Assembly (NCBI GenBank): GCA_017624735.1
Contig: JAGAMK010000039.1
Location: forward strand, 1 to 43,208
Direction of reading: 5' to 3'
DNA length: 43,208 nucleotides
From: Clostridia bacterium
GTDB lineage: Bacteria; Bacillota; Clostridia; Oscillospirales; Acutalibacteraceae
The number at the start of each line of letters is the position of its first letter. The first letter of the stretch is position 1. The notes under the pieces were generated by a model. The model was not told the DNA's origin. It was given only the letters and a program-made list of their open reading frames with translations, and did no database searches. This document shows positions 4,932-11,464 of the stretch, piece by piece. Position numbers and translations under genes: made by a program.

Positions 4932-5126
4932 AAAATTTGTCGGGGTCTTTGACTTAATCTTTTTTCGGCTCCCTCTGACGAGGGAGCTGTCTGCGAAGCA
5001 GACTGAGGGAGAGATTTAATAAACGAACAAGTCTATCTCTCCCTCCGTCACTCGCTATGCTCGTGCCACCTCCCTCGTCAGAGGGAGGCAAGGTCACGTC
5101 ATTCAATCATCCCTATAAACTCCAAT
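4932..5126. repeat. Composite palindromic element with TTGTCGGG-type ends
   Basis: The left end AAAATTTGTCGGGG (4932-4945) and the degenerate right end CCCTATAAACTCCAATT (5110-5126) are imperfect inverted repeats of the family seen at 203-220 and 27622-27771. Inside are GCTCCCTC-TGAC-GAGGGAGC (4968-4987), GTCTGC-GAA-GCAGAC, and a mirrored CCTCCCTC-GTCA-GAGGGAGG near 5081-5100. It accounts for most of the 390-base gap between tuf and the DUF896 gene. It has no coding potential. Confidence 0.65.
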
Positions 5127-5161
5127 TCATCGATGAAATTAATGTGATAAGATATAAATTG

Positions 5162-5190
5162 TTGACTATATATTAAAAATGTTCTATACT
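5162..5190 (+). promoter_or_regulatory. Promoter of the DUF896 gene
   Basis: TTGACT (5162-5167), a 17-bp spacer and TATACT (5185-5190) lie 33 bases upstream of the start codon at 5223. Confidence 0.7.
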
Positions 5191-5222
5191 ATACAAGCAA
5201 TAAAAACAAAGGAACGTATAAA

Positions 5223-5435
5223 ATGGAACAGAAAAAAATCGACAGAATAAATGAACTTGCAAAGAAAATGAAAACAGTTGGACTTACCGAAGAAGAAAAG
5301 GCTGAGCAAGCAGTTTTACGTCGTGAATATATCGACAGTTTTAAACGTAGCCTTACAGGTCAACTGGATAATATGTATATTGTTGACGAAAAAGGTAATA
5401 AAACAAAAGTAGAACGTAAAGGCAATAAAAAATAA
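5223..5435 (+). CDS. DUF896 family small protein (YnzC-like)
   Basis: A 70-residue soluble protein, highly charged. The stretch [21 protein letters not shown], followed by [19 protein letters not shown], matches the conserved two-helix hairpin of the DUF896 family, whose Bacillus member is YnzC. The biochemical role of this family is not established. The tail [13 protein letters not shown] is very basic and could contact nucleic acid, which is inference only. It is a monocistronic gene with its own promoter (5162-5190) and a hairpin terminator at 5488-5526. The ribosome site (AAAGGAAC, about 12 bases before ATG) is only moderately good. Confidence 0.85.
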
Positions 5436-5480
5436 TTTGCAGGAAAATTGAATATCTTGGGGTATTGATAACTCAATAAC

Positions 5481-5526
5481 TTGACTAAACCGCTAAATGT
5501 AGTGTATAATATTTAGTGGTTTATTT
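5481..5526 (+). terminator. Hairpin terminator overlapping a promoter-like sequence
   Basis: An 11-bp stem AACCGCTAAAT (5488-5498) / ATTTAGTGGTT (5511-5521) runs into TATTTTTAT and would terminate the DUF896 transcript. The same bases also contain TTGACT (5481-5486) and TATAAT (5505-5510) at 18-bp spacing, which would be a promoter for the topoisomerase operon starting at 5624. Confidence 0.6.
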
Positions 5527-5534
5527 TTATACTT

Positions 5535-5580
5535 GGCTCTCCTGAAAGGGGAGCTGTCTGCGGAGCAGACTGAGGGGTTT
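5535..5580. repeat. Short palindromic repeat (CTCC..GGAG and GTCTGC..GCAGAC hairpins)
   Basis: GGCTCTCC-TGAA-AGGGGAGC is followed by GTCTGC-GGA-GCAGAC and TGAGGGG. It is the same palindromic core found in the larger composite elements at 52-222, 4932-5126 and 43069-43208, here without the TTGTCGGG ends. It lies in the 5' leader of the topoisomerase operon. Confidence 0.65.
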
Positions 5581-5623
5581 GTTCAACTGCTCACAATAAA
5601 TTCCTGTTAAGGAGTAAAATCTT

Positions 5624-7612
5624 ATGGCAAAAAAAGCATCTTACGGTAACGAAAGTATTTCACAATTAAAAGGCGCTGACAGAGTTCGTAAACGTCCTGC
5701 CGTTATTTTCGGTTCGGATGGTATTGAGGGTTGCGAACACGCAGTTTTTGAGATTCTTTCTAACTCTATCGACGAAGCAAGAGAGGGCTATGGCGACAAA
5801 ATCGTTGTAACTCGTTATCTTGACGGTTCAATCGAAATTCAGGACTTTGGTCGTGGTCTTCCCGTTGATTATAACAAGAAGGAAGACAGATACAACTGGG
5901 AACTTGTTTTCTGCGAACTTTACGCAGGTAGTAAGTATAATACAAATGATGCAAACGGAAGCTATGAGTATTCTTTGGGACTTAATGGCTTGGGCCTTTG
6001 TGCAACACAGTATTCATCTGAGTATATGGATGCAGAAGTGCATAAGGACGGATATAAATATAATCTTCACTTTGAAAAAGGTGAAATTGCAGGAGAAATG
6101 CAAAAAGAACCTTATAACAAGAAAGATACAGGTACTCGTATCCGTTGGAAGCCTGACCTTAAAGTTTTTACTGACATCAATATTCCGCTTGAATACTATC
6201 AAGAAACAATTAAACGTCAGTCAGTTGTCAATCAGGGCATTAAATTCATCCTTAAAAATCAGATTTCGGGCAATAGTTTTGAAACTTTTGAATATGTTTA
6301 TGAAAATGGTATTACTGACTATGTAAAGGAACTTGCTAACGGTACAGAAATGTCATCAGTTCAATTCTGGTCAAGCGAAAGAGTTGGTCGTGACCGTGCC
6401 GATATGAAGGATTATAAGGTTAAACTTACCGCATCAGTATGTTTTTCCAATAAAGTTCAGGCAAAGGAATATTACCACAATTCAAGTTTCCTTGAACACG
6501 GTGGTGCACCTGAAAAAGCATTCAGAAATGCCTTTGTGTATCAAATTGATAATTACCTTAAAACAAACGGAAAATATGTTAAGAGTGATGCTAAAATCAC
6601 TTATCAGGATGTTGAGGATTGCTTGATTTTGGTTGTTTCTTCATTCTCAACACAGACATCCTACGAAAATCAGACAAAAAAGGCTATTACAAATAAATTT
6701 ATTCAAGAGGCAATGACAGATTTCTTCCGTCAGCAACTTGAAATCTACTTCCTTGAAAACAAACTTGACGCAGATAAGATTACAAATCAGGTGCTTATCA
6801 ATATGCGTTCAAGAATTAAAGCAGAAAGCACAAGAATTAACATTAAAAAGACTTTACAGTCAAGTAACGATATGACTTCTCGTGTTGAAAAATTTGTTGA
6901 CTGTCGTAGCCGTGATGTTAATGAAAGAGAAATCTTCATAGTAGAGGGTGATTCTGCTCTTGGTGCTTGTAAGCAGGCTCGTGACTCATCTTTCCAGGCA
7001 ATTATTCCTGTCCGTGGTAAGATTCTCAACTGTTTAAAGAGTGAATACGATAAGATTTTCAAAAGTGATATCATCGTTGACCTTATAAAAGTTCTCGGCT
7101 GTGGCGTTGAGGTTAATTCTAAAAAGAGTAAAGATGTATCTTCATTCAATATTGACGATTTAAGATGGAATAAAGTTATTATCTGTACCGATGCCGATGT
7201 TGACGGTTTCCAAATTAGAACACTTATTCTCACAATGATTTACAGACTTATGCCAACTCTTATCAAGGAAGGCAAGGTTTATATTGCAGAATCACCACTT
7301 TATGAAGTCCGTTACAAGGACGAAACTTGGTTCTGCTATACAGAAAAAGAAAAGGCTGATGTTTTGGCTGAACTTGGTAATGTTAAATATACAATTCAGC
7401 GTTCAAAGGGTCTTGGTGAAAATGATGCCGATATGATGTGGCTTACAACTATGAACCCCAAAACACGTCGTTTGATTAAAATTGAGCCTGATTATAGTCC
7501 TGAAGCAGTTGCAGAGAAATTTGACCTGCTTTTAGGTGATAATCTTCAAGGAAGAAAAGACCATATTGCCGAAAATGGTTATATGTACATTGACTTGGCT
7601 GATATTTCATAA
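5624..7612 (+). CDS. Divergent type IIA DNA topoisomerase subunit B (GyrB/ParE family)
   Basis: This is an ATPase/TOPRIM subunit of a type IIA topoisomerase, 662 residues, the size of a ParE or Gram-positive GyrB. The GHKL ATPase is recognisable: N-box E43..N47 in FEILSNSIDEA, G1 box D74-FGRG, and a lid with SLGLNGLGLCATQYSS (about 117-132), where housekeeping enzymes have SGGLHGVG. The TOPRIM motifs are intact: EGDSA with E441, PVRGKILN, and the DADVD triad D523, D525, D527. The C-terminal QRSKGLGENDADMMWLTTMN is the usual tail motif. The lid and transducer regions are clearly unlike ordinary GyrB or ParE, so I regard it as a divergent paralogue rather than the main gyrase. Its partner A subunit starts at 8088. 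A strong AAGGAG site precedes the ATG. Confidence 0.85.
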   Translation: MAKKASYGNESISQLKGADRVRKRPAVIFGSDGIEGCEHAVFEILSNSIDEAREGYGDKIVVTRYLDGSIEIQDFGRGLPVDYNKKEDRYNWELVFCELYAGSKYNTNDANGSYEYSLGLNGLGLCATQYSSEYMDAEVHKDGYKYNLHFEKGEIAGEMQKEPYNKKDTGTRIRWKPDLKVFTDINIPLEYYQETIKRQSVVNQGIKFILKNQISGNSFETFEYVYENGITDYVKELANGTEMSSVQFWSSERVGRDRADMKDYKVKLTASVCFSNKVQAKEYYHNSSFLEHGGAPEKAFRNAFVYQIDNYLKTNGKYVKSDAKITYQDVEDCLILVVSSFSTQTSYENQTKKAITNKFIQEAMTDFFRQQLEIYFLENKLDADKITNQVLINMRSRIKAESTRINIKKTLQSSNDMTSRVEKFVDCRSRDVNEREIFIVEGDSALGACKQARDSSFQAIIPVRGKILNCLKSEYDKIFKSDIIVDLIKVLGCGVEVNSKKSKDVSSFNIDDLRWNKVIICTDADVDGFQIRTLILTMIYRLMPTLIKEGKVYIAESPLYEVRYKDETWFCYTEKEKADVLAELGNVKYTIQRSKGLGENDADMMWLTTMNPKTRRLIKIEPDYSPEAVAEKFDLLLGDNLQGRKDHIAENGYMYIDLADIS

Positions 7613-7615
7613 TAG

Positions 7616-8074
7616 AATGCAAAACTCAAAGTGCAAAGCGCAAAATGACGTAGGAGACCTAATATGAATGATAATATTATAGAAAATAAAAGTTTCCAAT
7701 TTGCAATTAGGATGGTTAATCTATATAAGCATTTAACACTTGAAAAGAAAGAATATGTAATGTCAAAACAGCTTTTAAGGTGCGGAACAAGTGTAGGTGC
7801 AAATGTTGCAGAAGGGGAACGAGGTCAGACTAAAGCAGATTTTTATTATAAAATGAGTATTGCATTAAAAGAAGCAAACGAAACATATTATTGGTTGCGA
7901 TTGTTACATGAAACTAACTATTTATCAGAAAAGGAATTTGTTTCTTTGGAAACAGATTTAAAAGAAATAATCGCATTGCTAATAGCAATATGCAAAACAA
8001 CGCAGGAAAATCAAGATTTATAAATAAGCGTCGCAGACCCGACACTTTGCGTTTTGCATTTTGCATTTTGCATT
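7616..8074. mobile_element. Candidate cassette: four-helix-bundle gene between inverted GCAAAA-rich repeats
   Basis: The left edge 7616-7648 reads AATGCAAAACTCAAAGTGC and continues with GCAAAGC and GCAAAAT units. The right edge 8043-8074, read inward on the minus strand, starts AATGCAAAATGCAAAATGC and continues with GCAAAAC and GCAAAGT. They are imperfect inverted repeats about 32 bp long around a single 119-codon gene. The unit sits exactly between the stop codon of the topoisomerase B gene and the AAGGAG ribosome site of the A gene. This looks like an insertion into an existing operon. No transposase or integrase is present, so how it would move is unknown. Confidence 0.5.
7664..8023 (+). 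CDS. Four-helix-bundle protein of the S23/IVP family
   Basis: A 119-residue all-helical protein. The conserved core is SKQLLRCGTSVGANVAEGER followed by FYYKMSIALKEANETYYWL and LLHETNYLS. This is the signature of the family first described as products of intervening sequences in 23S rRNA genes (four helix bundle, TIGR02436/PF05635 type), and structurally related to the Avd protein of diversity-generating retroelements. The molecular function of stand-alone members is not known. Here it is not in an rRNA gene: it lies between two topoisomerase genes, in the same orientation, flanked by inverted GCAAAA-rich repeats. A TAGGAGA site 6-12 bases upstream supports the start at 7664. Its base composition is more AT-rich than that of its neighbours, in keeping with acquisition. 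Confidence 0.88.
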   Translation: MNDNIIENKSFQFAIRMVNLYKHLTLEKKEYVMSKQLLRCGTSVGANVAEGERGQTKADFYYKMSIALKEANETYYWLRLLHETNYLSEKEFVSLETDLKEIIALLIAICKTTQENQDL

Positions 8075-8087
8075 AAGGAGATAAATT

Positions 8088-10328
8088 ATGGCACGAAAAA
8101 AGAAAATTGATGTTCCAAAAGTGGAAGAAGAAAATATAAACGCACATATTATCGGTGCCGGTGATGTTGTTGAACAGTTCATTACTGAAACACTTGAAAC
8201 CAACTATATGCCTTATGCTATGAGTGTTATTATGTCCCGTGCAATTCCTGAAATTGACGGTCTTAAACCATCTCACAGAAAACTCCTTTATACAATGTAT
8301 AAAATGGGACTTTTAAATGGTGCAAGAGTAAAATCTGCAAACATCGTTGGTCGTACAATGCAACTTAATCCCCACGGTGATATGGCAATTTACGAAACAA
8401 TGGTGCGACTCTCAAAGGGTAACGAAAGCTTGTTGCACGCTTATGTTGACTCAAAGGGTAACTTTGGTAAAGCGTATTCAAAGAATATGGCTTTTGCTGC
8501 ATCACGTTATACTGAGGCAAAGCTCGAAGCGATTTCAGCGGAATTATTCCGCGATATCGATAAGGACACAGTTGATTTTGTTGATAACTACGATGCTACA
8601 ATGAAGGAGCCAACACTTCTTCCTGTAACATTCCCGTCAATTCTTGTAAACTCAAATACAGGTATTGCAGTTGGTATGGCATCTTCAATCTGTTCATTCA
8701 ATCTACGTGAAATTTGCGAAACTACTATCGGTCTTATCAAAGATAAAGACTTTGACATTATGGAAACTCTTAAAGCACCTGACTTTATCGGTGGTGGCAA
8801 AATTGTTTATGACCGTGAGCAGATGGCAGAGATTTTCCGTACAGGTCGTGGCGGCTTTAAGGTAAGAGCAAAATATGAGTACGACAAGGCAAATAACTGC
8901 ATTGATATTACTGAAATCCCGCCAACAACAACTGCCGAAGCAATTATCGATAAGGTAATTGAAAAGGTTAAGGCAAATGCTATCCGTGAAATCAGCGACA
9001 TCCGTGACGAAACTGATAAAAAAGGTCTTAAAATCACTATCGACCTTAAACGTGGTACGGATGCTGAAAAACTCATGGCAAAACTCTATAAAATGACTCC
9101 TCTTGAGGACACATTCTCTTGCAATTTCAATGTGCTTATTGCAGGTGTGCCACAGGTGTTGGGTGTTGCCGATTTGCTTACAGAATGGATTGCATTCCGT
9201 ACAGAATGTGTAAATCGCAGAGTTTATTTTGACCTTACAAAGGCAAAAGATAAACTTCATCTCTTGTTAGGTCTTCAAAAAATTCTTCTTGATATTGACA
9301 AGGCAATTAAAATTGTCCGTGAAACTGAAGAGGAAGCAGAAGTTGTGCCTAACTTGATGATTGGCTTCGGAATTGACCAGATTCAGGCTGAATATGTTGC
9401 CGAAATCAAACTCCGTCACTTGAACCGTGAGTATATCCTTAAACGTCTTAATGATGTTGAAGACCTTAAAAAGCAGATTGAGGATATGGAAGATATTCTC
9501 TCAAGTAAAGCGAGAGTTAAGAAAATCATTGTTAATGAGCTTAACCAAGTTGTTGATAAATACGGCAAGGACAGACGCACAGAGATTATCTATGCCCAGG
9601 AAATCGAAGAAAATGAAGAAGAAATCGAGGCAGTGCCAGATTATCCCGTTACAGTTTTCTTCACAAAAGAGGGTTATTTCAAAAAGATTACTCCATTGTC
9701 ACTTCGTATGAGTGGTGAGCATAAACTCAAGGAAAATGACGAAATTGTAATGAGTGTGGAAACAACAAATAGTGTTGAACTTCTTTTCTTTACAAATAAA
9801 TGTCAGGTTTATAAATCTCGTGCTTGTGAGTTCGATGACACAAAGGCAAGTGTACTCGGTGACTATGTAGCAACAAAACTCCAAATGGAACCTGACGAAA
9901 CAGCATTATTTATGGCTGTTGTCAAGGAATATAAGGGCTATATGCTCTTCTTCTTCCAGAATGGTAAGGTTGCAAAGGTTGATATTTCTGCTTATGAAAC
10001 AAAGCAGAACCGTAAAAAACTTATAAAGGCTTATTCTGATAAGAGTCCTATTGTAAGTGCAGTTTATGTTCCCGAGGATAAGGAACTTGTGATGAAGTCA
10101 ACTGCAGGCAGATATTTGCTCTTTAATTCAGGCGCAATTTCTGCAAAGACTACAAAGGATAGTCAGGGTGTTGCCGTAATGAGCCTTAAAAAAGGTCACA
10201 GGGTAGAGTCTGTTTCTGATGTTAAAGAAGGTCAGTTTGTAAGACCAGGAAGATACAGAACAAAAACTCTCCCATCAGCAGGTGCGATACTTAGTGCAGA
10301 GGACCAAGGCGAACAGCTCACATTCTAA
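8088..10328 (+). CDS. Divergent type IIA DNA topoisomerase subunit A (GyrA/ParC family)
   Basis: This is the DNA-cleaving subunit, 746 residues. The N-terminal YMPYAMSVIMSRAIPEIDGL block is classical. The catalytic tyrosine is Y141 in AASRYTEAKLEAI, preceded by the invariant arginine. The quinolone-resistance region differs from ordinary enzymes: GRTMQLNPHGDMAIYETM carries Met99 where GyrA has Ser83, and Glu103 where it has Asp87. The segment before the active site is NFGKAYSKNMAFAASR instead of the usual GDSAAAMRYTE form. A coiled-coil tower with LKKQIEDMEDILSS lies near residues 460-480 and a beta-pinwheel-like C-terminal part fills about 510-740. I see no clear GyrA box (QRRGGKG), so decatenation rather than supercoiling is the likelier activity. 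It is co-transcribed with the B gene and the four-helix gene. Confidence 0.85.
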   Translation: MARKKKIDVPKVEEENINAHIIGAGDVVEQFITETLETNYMPYAMSVIMSRAIPEIDGLKPSHRKLLYTMYKMGLLNGARVKSANIVGRTMQLNPHGDMAIYETMVRLSKGNESLLHAYVDSKGNFGKAYSKNMAFAASRYTEAKLEAISAELFRDIDKDTVDFVDNYDATMKEPTLLPVTFPSILVNSNTGIAVGMASSICSFNLREICETTIGLIKDKDFDIMETLKAPDFIGGGKIVYDREQMAEIFRTGRGGFKVRAKYEYDKANNCIDITEIPPTTTAEAIIDKVIEKVKANAIREISDIRDETDKKGLKITIDLKRGTDAEKLMAKLYKMTPLEDTFSCNFNVLIAGVPQVLGVADLLTEWIAFRTECVNRRVYFDLTKAKDKLHLLLGLQKILLDIDKAIKIVRETEEEAEVVPNLMIGFGIDQIQAEYVAEIKLRHLNREYILKRLNDVEDLKKQIEDMEDILSSKARVKKIIVNELNQVVDKYGKDRRTEIIYAQEIEENEEEIEAVPDYPVTVFFTKEGYFKKITPLSLRMSGEHKLKENDEIVMSVETTNSVELLFFTNKCQVYKSRACEFDDTKASVLGDYVATKLQMEPDETALFMAVVKEYKGYMLFFFQNGKVAKVDISAYETKQNRKKLIKAYSDKSPIVSAVYVPEDKELVMKSTAGRYLLFNSGAISAKTTKDSQGVAVMSLKKGHRVESVSDVKEGQFVRPGRYRTKTLPSAGAILSAEDQGEQLTF

Positions 10329-10533
10329 ATTGATTATTTTTCCGTTTGACTGCCTTGCCTTCGACTCGTAGTATCTATATACGACTTCGTCTTGGCAAGA
10401 TTGTCAAAACAAAAAAATAATTCAATTTATTTAATTGTTTCTTTTTCCGTTATACGTCCTTGCTCTCAACTCGCGGTATCTACATACAGCTTCACCTCTG
10501 CCACATTGTCTTACGAAAAAATAATTCAATTTA
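10328..10533. repeat. Two tandem ~100-bp repeats with AAATTGAATTATTTTT-type ends
   Basis: Copy one (10328-10429) and copy two (10433-10533) align along their whole length at roughly 70 percent identity. Shared blocks are TTTTTCCGTT, CTCG(T/C)(A/G)GTATCTA(T/C)ATAC and ATAATTCAATTTA. Within each copy the two ends are inverted, AATTGATTATTTTT against AAAAATAATTCAATT. Each could therefore fold as one long hairpin or represent a tiny element of the MITE kind. They directly follow the topoisomerase A stop codon. Confidence 0.6.
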
Positions 10534-10563
10534 GTTTTTGGTATAATTAAATATAAAATGTAG

Positions 10564-10595
10564 GGGACGCTGACCACAGCGTCCCTTTGATTTTG
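10564..10595 (+). terminator. Hairpin terminator after the topoisomerase operon
   Basis: A perfect 9-bp stem GGGACGCTG / CAGCGTCCC closes an ACCA loop and is followed by TTTGATTTTG. The loop and outer TAGGGGACG resemble the hairpin at 14898-14921, so it may also be a dispersed repeat. Confidence 0.65.
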
Positions 10596-10624
10596 TTGAC
10601 AAAATAATATTAAAATGATATATT
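10596..10624 (+). promoter_or_regulatory. Promoter of the YfjL-like gene
   Basis: TTGACA (10596-10601), a 17-bp spacer and TATATT (10619-10624) lie 37 bases before the start at 10661. Confidence 0.75.
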
Positions 10625-10660
10625 TGATTTAAGATAACTTGGATAAAAGGGGAGTGCAAT

Positions 10661-11464
10661 ATGAAAAAAACTATTAAAATAAGCGTTATTGTTTTAATTG
10701 TTATTCTTATTGTGGCTTTTATTGCATTTTTTGCAAATTCATTATTTGGAAACCCTATCTCAAAAAAGCTTGCCGAAAATACTGCGATTGAGTATATTGA
10801 GGAGAATTATCCTGACGATAACTGTCAAATTAAAGCTATATATTATGATTTCAAATATGAGGATTATACTGTGCATATTATCTCCGCAACAAATGAAAAC
10901 ATTGATTTTTCTTTGAATATCACACCAAAAGGTGAAGTCGCAGGAATTGAATATTGGAAAAATCCAACTAACGAAGAAGAATCTGCAACCCCATTAACAG
11001 AGGACGAGCTAAAAGAACTTTGTATAAAAGCACATAATTTGTATGCTGAGTGGTTTAGTCCTGCAAATAATCTTGTTGTTGATTGGGATAATACTTTGAA
11101 AATAGATAAAAGAGAGTATTTTGAGGTGGATTCAACTGAAATAACATCAGTTGAAGCATTAAAAACAGAATTTGCAAAGTATTTCGACAGTGAAGAAATT
11201 GATGATAAAATTGATGGTTATTATGTAATGTACAATGGAAAAATGTATGGTGCTTCCGAGTTGGTTCAAGGTGGAGAGATTGAAGGAATGAAACACAAAA
11301 TGACCATAGAGAAGAATACAAACACAGAATGTCTTTTGAAAATAACATCATACTTAGATAGTTTTGAACAAGTTTTTTATTATAGATTAAGAGTAATTGA
11401 TGGCGAGTGGAAGTTCGCAGGTGTATTCCATTGGGTAACACAGTACGATTTAGTTTTGGAATAA
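10661..11464 (+). CDS. Membrane-anchored YfjL-like protein of unknown function
   Basis: A 267-residue protein with one N-terminal membrane segment (about residues 5-27, VIVLIVILIVAFIAFF) and no cleavage site that I can see, so the rest should face outward. The stretch just after the anchor, GNPISKKLAENTAIEYIEEN, resembles the N-terminal domain of Bacillus YfjL-type proteins. That domain (to about residue 100) looks like a PepSY-like fold. The C-terminal half (about 120-267) has a FAKYFDSEEIDDKIDGYYV motif, a conserved-looking GKMYGASELVQGG and a final REWKFAGV-like strand. This is reminiscent of IseA-type inhibitor or NTF2-like domains, but I cannot assign it. It is monocistronic with its own promoter at 10596-10624. 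The start has a GGGGAGTG site. Confidence 0.55.
   Translation: MKKTIKISVIVLIVILIVAFIAFFANSLFGNPISKKLAENTAIEYIEENYPDDNCQIKAIYYDFKYEDYTVHIISATNENIDFSLNITPKGEVAGIEYWKNPTNEEESATPLTEDELKELCIKAHNLYAEWFSPANNLVVDWDNTLKIDKREYFEVDSTEITSVEALKTEFAKYFDSEEIDDKIDGYYVMYNGKMYGASELVQGGEIEGMKHKMTIEKNTNTECLLKITSYLDSFEQVFYYRLRVIDGEWKFAGVFHWVTQYDLVLE

Follow-up and report, generated by a model that had tools for sequence, protein, structure and literature searches.

A 459-bp unit (positions 7616-8074) lies in a 43,208-nt contig of a gut Clostridia bacterium (JAGAMK010000039.1, assembly GCA_017624735.1; the whole contig is hereafter called the window). It consists of one 119-codon gene of the S23/IVP family of four-helix-bundle proteins, placed between two inverted arms, each exactly 32 bp long. 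This unit is probably a minimal mobile element resembling the REPINs (paired, hairpin-forming copies of repetitive extragenic palindromic (REP) sequences), in which the S23/IVP gene would encode an end-binding protein and each of the two inverted arms comprises five boxes joined by an element-specific triplet. The recurrence of the same plan in several bacterial phyla points to a type of very small mobile element that has not been described before. An earlier reading of this DNA, made without database searches (hereafter, the sequence-only reading), had already proposed a minimal mobile unit with the repeats as its ends, and the comparisons described here, themselves made at the sequence level, lend support to that proposal.

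The product of the open reading frame (ORF) scores 101.9 bits against PF05635 (cut-off 33.8) and 110.3 bits against TIGR02436 (cut-off 24), and its structural model, with a mean pLDDT of 91.1 and 2RLD as the best match among solved structures, has the four-helix-bundle fold, confirming the family assignment made from the letters alone. Both arms are composed of five A-R-Y-K tetranucleotide boxes and the four CAA triplets that join them (Table 1), and the left and right arms are identical at 27 of 32 positions, in agreement with the imperfect inverted repeats of ~32 bp described earlier. The unit also fits between the two topoisomerase genes as precisely as had been claimed, starting 3 nt past the TAA of the GyrB/ParE-like gene and ending directly before the AAGGAG of the GyrA/ParC-like gene; 16 nt separate the left arm from the S23/IVP start codon. 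In the predicted RNA, the arms pair with each other (z = -3.9; none of 100 shuffles was equally stable). The 32-bp arms are terminal inverted repeats, as in insertion sequences and miniature inverted-repeat transposable elements; unlike an insertion sequence, the unit contains no transposase gene, the S23/IVP gene being its only ORF of at least 80 aa. An S23 ORF between complementary ends is likewise the arrangement of the intervening sequences (IVSs) of 23S rRNA genes. A search of positions 5000-11000 against Rfam gave no match, and the element is flanked by protein genes, that is, it lies outside any 23S rRNA gene.

In relatives, the site is empty of the gene. Within a sample of 39 genomes of the genus, the N-terminus of the ParC-like protein found an orthologue in 35 and only a paralogue in the other 4, and the ParE-ParC spacer was read in all 35, the window genome included. 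The window genome alone has the S23/IVP gene at this site, and the gene is missing from 34 of 34 readable relatives; in the nearest of these (ParC-like N-terminus 95% identical over 200 aa), the spacer is 17 nt long and contains its own GA-rich ribosome site. Other small repeats sit in several of the remaining ParE-ParC spacers, which indicates that this spacer tolerates insertions. Across the genus the S23/IVP family is patchily distributed, in 23 of the 39 genomes and with 0-8 copies (52 matches, of which 49 were analysed; the fragments G011:C332 and G011:C169 and the half match L054 were left out). The sequence-only reading had stated that retention of the gene by all relatives with a phylogeny like that of the topoisomerase genes, or repeats that do not co-occur with other copies of the family, would argue against a cassette; the gene is not retained, and other family members are flanked by inverted heptamer arrays, each with its own unit.

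The plan recurs in several phyla. Scanning genome contigs with nine proteins of the genus yielded a wide set of 80 loci, of which 75 could be assigned to a phylum (ten named phyla altogether) and 78 could be tested for inversion of the flanks. Strong inverted complementarity of the flanks was found for 65 of these 78 S23/IVP genes, the corresponding figures being 3 of 227 for neighbouring ORFs and 182 of 1500 for cross-pairs, and the best repeat period was seven nucleotides in 137 of 156 S23/IVP flanks versus 52 of 454 control flanks. Among 90 genes (the 80 wide loci and 10 from the genus), the best run comprised five boxes in 40 upstream flanks (three boxes in 16, four in 11, six in 6, none in 11) and in 45 downstream flanks (three in 11, four in 15, six in 4, none in 9); runs of four or more boxes were found in 24 of 519 flanks of neighbouring control ORFs. 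Period-7 segments delimited without the box model had median lengths of 32 and 33 nt. The inverted heptamer arrays around other family members each have their own unit, with an element-specific triplet. Exact five-box arms on both sides define 38 elements with a median length of 472 bp, in which the arms are identical at a median of 28 of 32 positions and the left arm, in most cases, lies 0-31 nt upstream of the start codon. The spacer triplet is the same in 84% of pairs with at least 75% protein identity, in 21% at 65-75% identity and in ~3% at 45-60%, and this covariation at short distance fits the co-inheritance of gene and arms as one unit. In a census of 24 genomes with family matches, 90 of 98 genes were read (the 8 left out are fragments, including one in G043 that is apparently L206), with five boxes in 30 upstream flanks (four in 9, six in 2) and 35 downstream flanks (four in 2, six in 2); an array of at least four boxes is present on one side or both in 51 genes, 36 of which have one on each side. 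The census figures indicate that the five-box plan is common in the S23/IVP family, not universal.

Similar arrays are dispersed away from the gene. In the window genome, three GCAAARY units followed by GC (at most one mismatch) have 32 matches, compared with 0 for a backward-read control, and GCAAA arrays are dispersed in 6 others of the 39 genomes. The lone repeat noted earlier at positions 1-28 of the window is a real array of four boxes at 4-28 and, given that the window is a whole contig (C29), may be cut by the contig end. GCAAA arrays occur in all 4 genomes with near relatives of the window protein versus 2 of 35 others (p = 1.8e-4, with G033, which has a single match, scored as lacking them); with G033 included, the same test gives 35/82251 = 4e-4 (calculated by hand), and the species are close kin and not independent. 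Exact four-box arrays with CAA or CAG spacers (CAR) were found in 7 of 7 genomes with matching S23/IVP arms versus 5 of 17 others (Fisher p = 0.0023), and those with GAT or GAC spacers (GAY) in 6 of 6 versus 3 of 18 (Fisher p = 0.0006), both counts including the gene's own arms. The density of five-box arrays apart from S23/IVP cassettes, 1 in 135 kb where the family is present versus 0 in 98 kb where it is absent, is uninformative.

The dispersed arrays share the box number and the paired arrangement of the arms. Exactly five boxes are present in 42 of 53 dispersed CAA arrays in loci of the genus (three boxes in 4, four in 4, six in 3; four arrays cut by a sequence edge were excluded) and in 35 of 55 arrays of at least four boxes located away from the gene in the wide loci (four boxes in 16), whereas dinucleotide shuffles amounting to 1.16 Mb contained four arrays of four boxes and none larger. 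Because arrays without the gene also peak at five, this number is a property of the array and not of the flank of the gene. Among 253 listed arrays, 24 of 28 pairs of close neighbours point inward (3 are both on the plus strand, 1 both on the minus strand, 0 outward), so that these are inverted doublets of a dispersed short repeat, as in REPINs. Seven of the 24 inward pairs enclose an S23/IVP gene. Others, formed by inverted five-box CAA arms, enclose an 86-aa ORF with CxxC motifs that is zinc-ribbon-like below the cut-off (L111, 665-1128) or a 115-aa ORF without a Pfam match above the cut-off (L112, 584-1339), and the inward pair in L010 encloses only ~30 bp (the reading of ORFs between array pairs left out L157).

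The 38 five-box elements tend to lie tightly between genes. In 25 of them, the left arm lies no more than 60 nt from the end of a same-strand ORF, and 12 of these 25 arms begin within the stop codon, by one or two nucleotides; the start of an ORF is found no more than 60 nt from the right arm in 26, and 20 elements combine the two arrangements. In 12 of the 38, the inner box includes the last two bases of the S23/IVP stop codon. Of two enzyme families considered as the mover of such elements, reverse transcriptase is not supported. The window genome (G000, 97.5% complete) has no PF00078 match, so a reverse transcriptase like that of diversity-generating retroelements was not found there, and reverse transcriptases occur in 9 of 23 genomes with the family versus 4 of 16 without it (p = 0.49). 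As for a REP-associated tyrosine transposase (RAYT), the window genome has one Y1-transposase match (59.9 bits) and such matches are present in 23 of the 39 genomes, yet they do not track the arrays, and G012 and G015 have GCAAA arrays and no Y1 match.

Table 1. Features of the S23/IVP element and its surroundings in the window
Feature	Position	Strand	Details
Whole element, 459 bp	7616..8074	+	
Left arm	7616..7647	+	AATG CAA AACT CAA AGTG CAA AGCG CAA AATG; five boxes, four CAA spacers, 32 nt
S23 / 23S_rRNA_IVP four-helix-bundle gene, 119 codons	7664..8023	+	likely Shine-Dalgarno sequence around 7649-7657
Inner motif GCGTCGCAGACCC(GA), adjoining the right arm	8027..8042	+	found by eye
Right arm, minus-strand reading (inward)	8043..8074	-	AATG CAA AATG CAA AATG CAA AACG CAA AGTG
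AAGGAG, ribosome site of the downstream gene, directly 3' of the right arm	8075..8080	+	
Host gene, GyrB/ParE-like	5624..7612	+	
Host gene, GyrA/ParC-like	8088..10328	+	
Solo CAA array, four boxes, at the contig start	4..28	+	

The inner motif GCGTCGCAGACCC was also seen by eye just inside an arm in L041 and L010 and, reversed, in L069, elements that have different triplets, and many solo arrays carry its variant GCAACGCAGTTCCGAC. A longer composite repeat, in which a CAA array is combined with CTCCCTCTGACGAGGGAGG-type hairpins, is dispersed in the window genome and stands at many contig ends (positions 1-200 of the window; L021, L024, L026, L029, L031, L158, L160 and L163). In other species, the ParE-ParC spacers (L083, L085, L087, L091, L095 and L096) contain other dispersed repeats of up to ~620 nt, which seem to come with a ribosome site of their own.

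The window genome has just one other S23/IVP gene (L002), which lies between smpB and the tmRNA gene and has its own inverted heptamer arms, joined by the triplet CGT. This spacer, smpB-ssrA (tmRNA), is a hot spot (loci L002, L127, L128, L130 and L138; L129 and L133; L300). S23/IVP elements bearing CGT/CGG-type arms occupy it in four species of the genus, G013 carries a solo five-box array of another unit there, a similar solo array was seen by eye in G015, and G042 apparently has an element at the same place (L300). In this comparison, 37 of the 39 genomes were matched and 30 spacers were read, and L175 was viewed among seven further loci; an apparent insertion in smpB of G003 proved to be a run of N.

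Many S23/IVP genes of the genus have a different architecture, in which boxes of about seven bases are separated by small hairpins of unrelated sequence. Hairpin spacers were detected in 25 of 39 loci of this class and in 17 of 39 census genes without heptamer arms, whereas the same filter passed 1 of 10 and 1 of 51 loci with heptamer arrays; the stems average 5.0 compared with 2.0 in shuffled sequences, a difference that is partly selected, since a mean stem of at least 3 was required for an array to be included. Hairpin spacers make most sense on a single strand, which favours RNA or single-stranded DNA as the bound form. Such arrays (L033-L080 and L331) stand upstream of many S23/IVP genes, often after tRNA genes; the one upstream of the gene in L331 has five boxes and four hairpins.

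The following mechanism would account for these features. The S23/IVP protein would form a five-membered ring whose subunits each bind a single box of an arm, with the arm present as single-stranded DNA or as RNA. Two family crystals, 2RLD and 2GSC, contain five chains each and the arms favour five boxes, which is why we propose that one ring binds one arm. There is a precedent in TRAP, a ring that binds one RNA motif per subunit. Ring binding would mark and join the two ends, which could also pair as a hairpin, and strand transfer would be carried out by another enzyme, the S23/IVP protein being only a four-helix bundle. Arm pairs without the gene would be non-autonomous derivatives, comparable to REPINs in their reliance on RAYT proteins. 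Surviving elements would be those that sit where they are least harmful, namely, between the genes of operons, often overlapping a stop codon, and beside tmRNA or tRNA genes. Binding at the left arm could also repress translation of the S23/IVP gene, and, with this arm standing just before the start codon, autoregulation would be a natural by-product.

Several observations weigh against this interpretation. The element encodes no catalytic domain, and the search for target duplications recommended in the sequence-only reading gave nothing above expectation, with no target-site duplication in 33 of the 38 five-box elements compared with 33.5 expected from shuffled pairs. The elements can also persist at one site, as at smpB-ssrA in four species. 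Within the window genome, GCAAA arrays accompany only the one S23/IVP copy; G009 has 81 GCAAA matches, yet none of its three S23/IVP genes is flanked by that unit, and G046, G048 and G051 hold 18, 27 and 13 CAR matches, respectively, with no matching gene among those read. As many as 39 of the 90 census genes lack arrays of four or more boxes, and 23 of the 90 had served to choose the genomes; among the other 67, just 28 have arrays of at least four boxes (counted by hand). The hairpin-spaced arrays mostly have four boxes, not five, by a permissive count that includes chance chains, so that the five-box count does not carry over simply. The box grammar itself is tolerant: opposite-strand readings of the 90 genes also give five boxes in 25 and 32, because AATT reads alike on both strands and the grammar is not strand-specific there, and loci read backwards still fit it often (four boxes in 112 cases, five in 70, and more). 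Reversed heptamer arrays, those of S23/IVP genes included, fit the grammar, which makes backward reading a poor control, and dinucleotide shuffles were used instead. Finally, the covariation of spacer and protein would equally follow from plain co-inheritance and by itself is no proof of recognition.

Comparison with known systems, based on the accessible parts of the articles cited, shows partial likeness in each case. REPINs resemble the present elements in being short inverted doublets that are dispersed in genomes, form hairpins in single-stranded DNA or mRNA and have a cognate protein (PMC3116915); here, however, a five-box heptamer array takes the place of the REP palindrome, and the linked protein, instead of being a Y1 transposase, is a four-helix bundle. 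The IVSs of 23S rRNA genes share the protein family and the complementary ends, with a 28-bp stem in the Coxiella IVS, and the review of that IVS cites an earlier proposal of a mobile IVS with the ORF serving mobility (PMC4990558). In a genome of the family Leptospiraceae (L360), an S23/IVP match lies inside the 23S rRNA gene, both flanks have period 7, and the left arm of 32 nt can be divided into five boxes (ACAG, ACAG, ACTG, ACAG and ATAG) and four triplets (ATG, AAG, AGG and ATA). The window element differs in lying between protein genes, and the boxes of L360, the one IVS compared, are mostly ACAG/ACTG; as this consensus departs from ARYK and there is a stop within the ORF match, we treat L360 as a lead from a single case. 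In Geobacter metallireducens, five tandem heptamers, among site classes that occur mostly in pairs, have been described as sites of an unknown global regulator; no protein is assigned to them, and the accessible main text contains neither "four helix" nor "23S" (PMC2700814). The TAACTGA repeats of Beggiatoaceae are likewise dispersed intergenic heptamer arrays with a patchy distribution across phyla, considered possible regulatory sites, but these are direct arrays before start codons, and the accessible text lacks the terms "S23", "intervening" and "helix bundle" (PMC4679880). In the open-access PMC literature, we found no paper linking the S23/IVP family to five-box heptamer arrays.

An alternative that we regard as rather unlikely is post-transcriptional regulation. 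The S23/IVP protein would then be a TRAP-like RNA-binding ring with five-box arrays in 5' and 3' untranslated regions as targets, its own arm serving autoregulation, the inverted copy acting as a transcript-stabilising hairpin and the dispersed arrays forming the regulon. The placement of most left arms shortly before start codons, the solo arrays that, by eye, often directly follow stop codons, and the ring stoichiometry suggested by the five chains of 2RLD and 2GSC are all in line with such a role, which a 2015 paper proposed, as translational regulation, for the TAACTGA heptamers (PMC4679880, in part). Regulation leaves unexplained why inverted pairs surround nothing or unrelated ORFs, why the gene is absent from the site in relatives and why near relatives have different triplets.

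Inverted pairs around unrelated ORFs, such as those of 86 aa in L111 and 115 aa in L112, the many arrays of G009 without a matching gene and the Y1-transposase match of the window genome would all fit a model in which the arrays are the ends of a mobile repeat that relies on a different protein, such as a RAYT, or on recombination between repeats, with the S23/IVP gene only as frequent cargo. We consider this quite improbable, given that the family is flanked far more often than neighbouring ORFs and that arrays with its own spacer accompany the gene, that Y1 matches do not single out the genomes with GCAAA arrays, and that no reverse transcriptase was found in the window genome and its occurrence shows no significant association with the family. 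It is very doubtful that the unit is an insert acting at the RNA level, like the 23S rRNA IVSs, to be excised by RNase III after pairing of its arms in the transcript and selected for splitting the parE-parC message instead of for mobility. The arms do pair in the predicted RNA, the stems of IVSs are reported to be cut by RNase III (PMC4990558, in part), and the IVS in L360 has arms of similar geometry; the solo arrays and mini pairs have no explanation in these terms, and such processing could go along with mobility and does not speak against it.

Stand-alone S23/IVP genes are common and, to our knowledge, have no assigned function. The accessible parts of the relevant articles describe the origin of 23S rRNA intervening sequences as unclear (PMC4990558) and give no agreed cause for the abundance of seven-base repeats in bacteria (PMC4679880). 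Beyond the favoured reading of the window unit as a REPIN-like mobile element, we tentatively raise the possibility, to which we attach less than even confidence, that there is a widespread class of DNA or RNA mobile elements that lack a catalytic domain and have as many boxes at each end as their own ring protein has subunits (five and five), with the triplet between boxes as the address of the element; the intervening sequences of 23S rRNA would be those members of the class that inserted into rRNA genes, and many unexplained heptanucleotide arrays would be footprints of such elements. If so, one anatomy would tie together the stand-alone S23/IVP genes, the intervening sequences of 23S rRNA and the seven-base repeats of bacteria.
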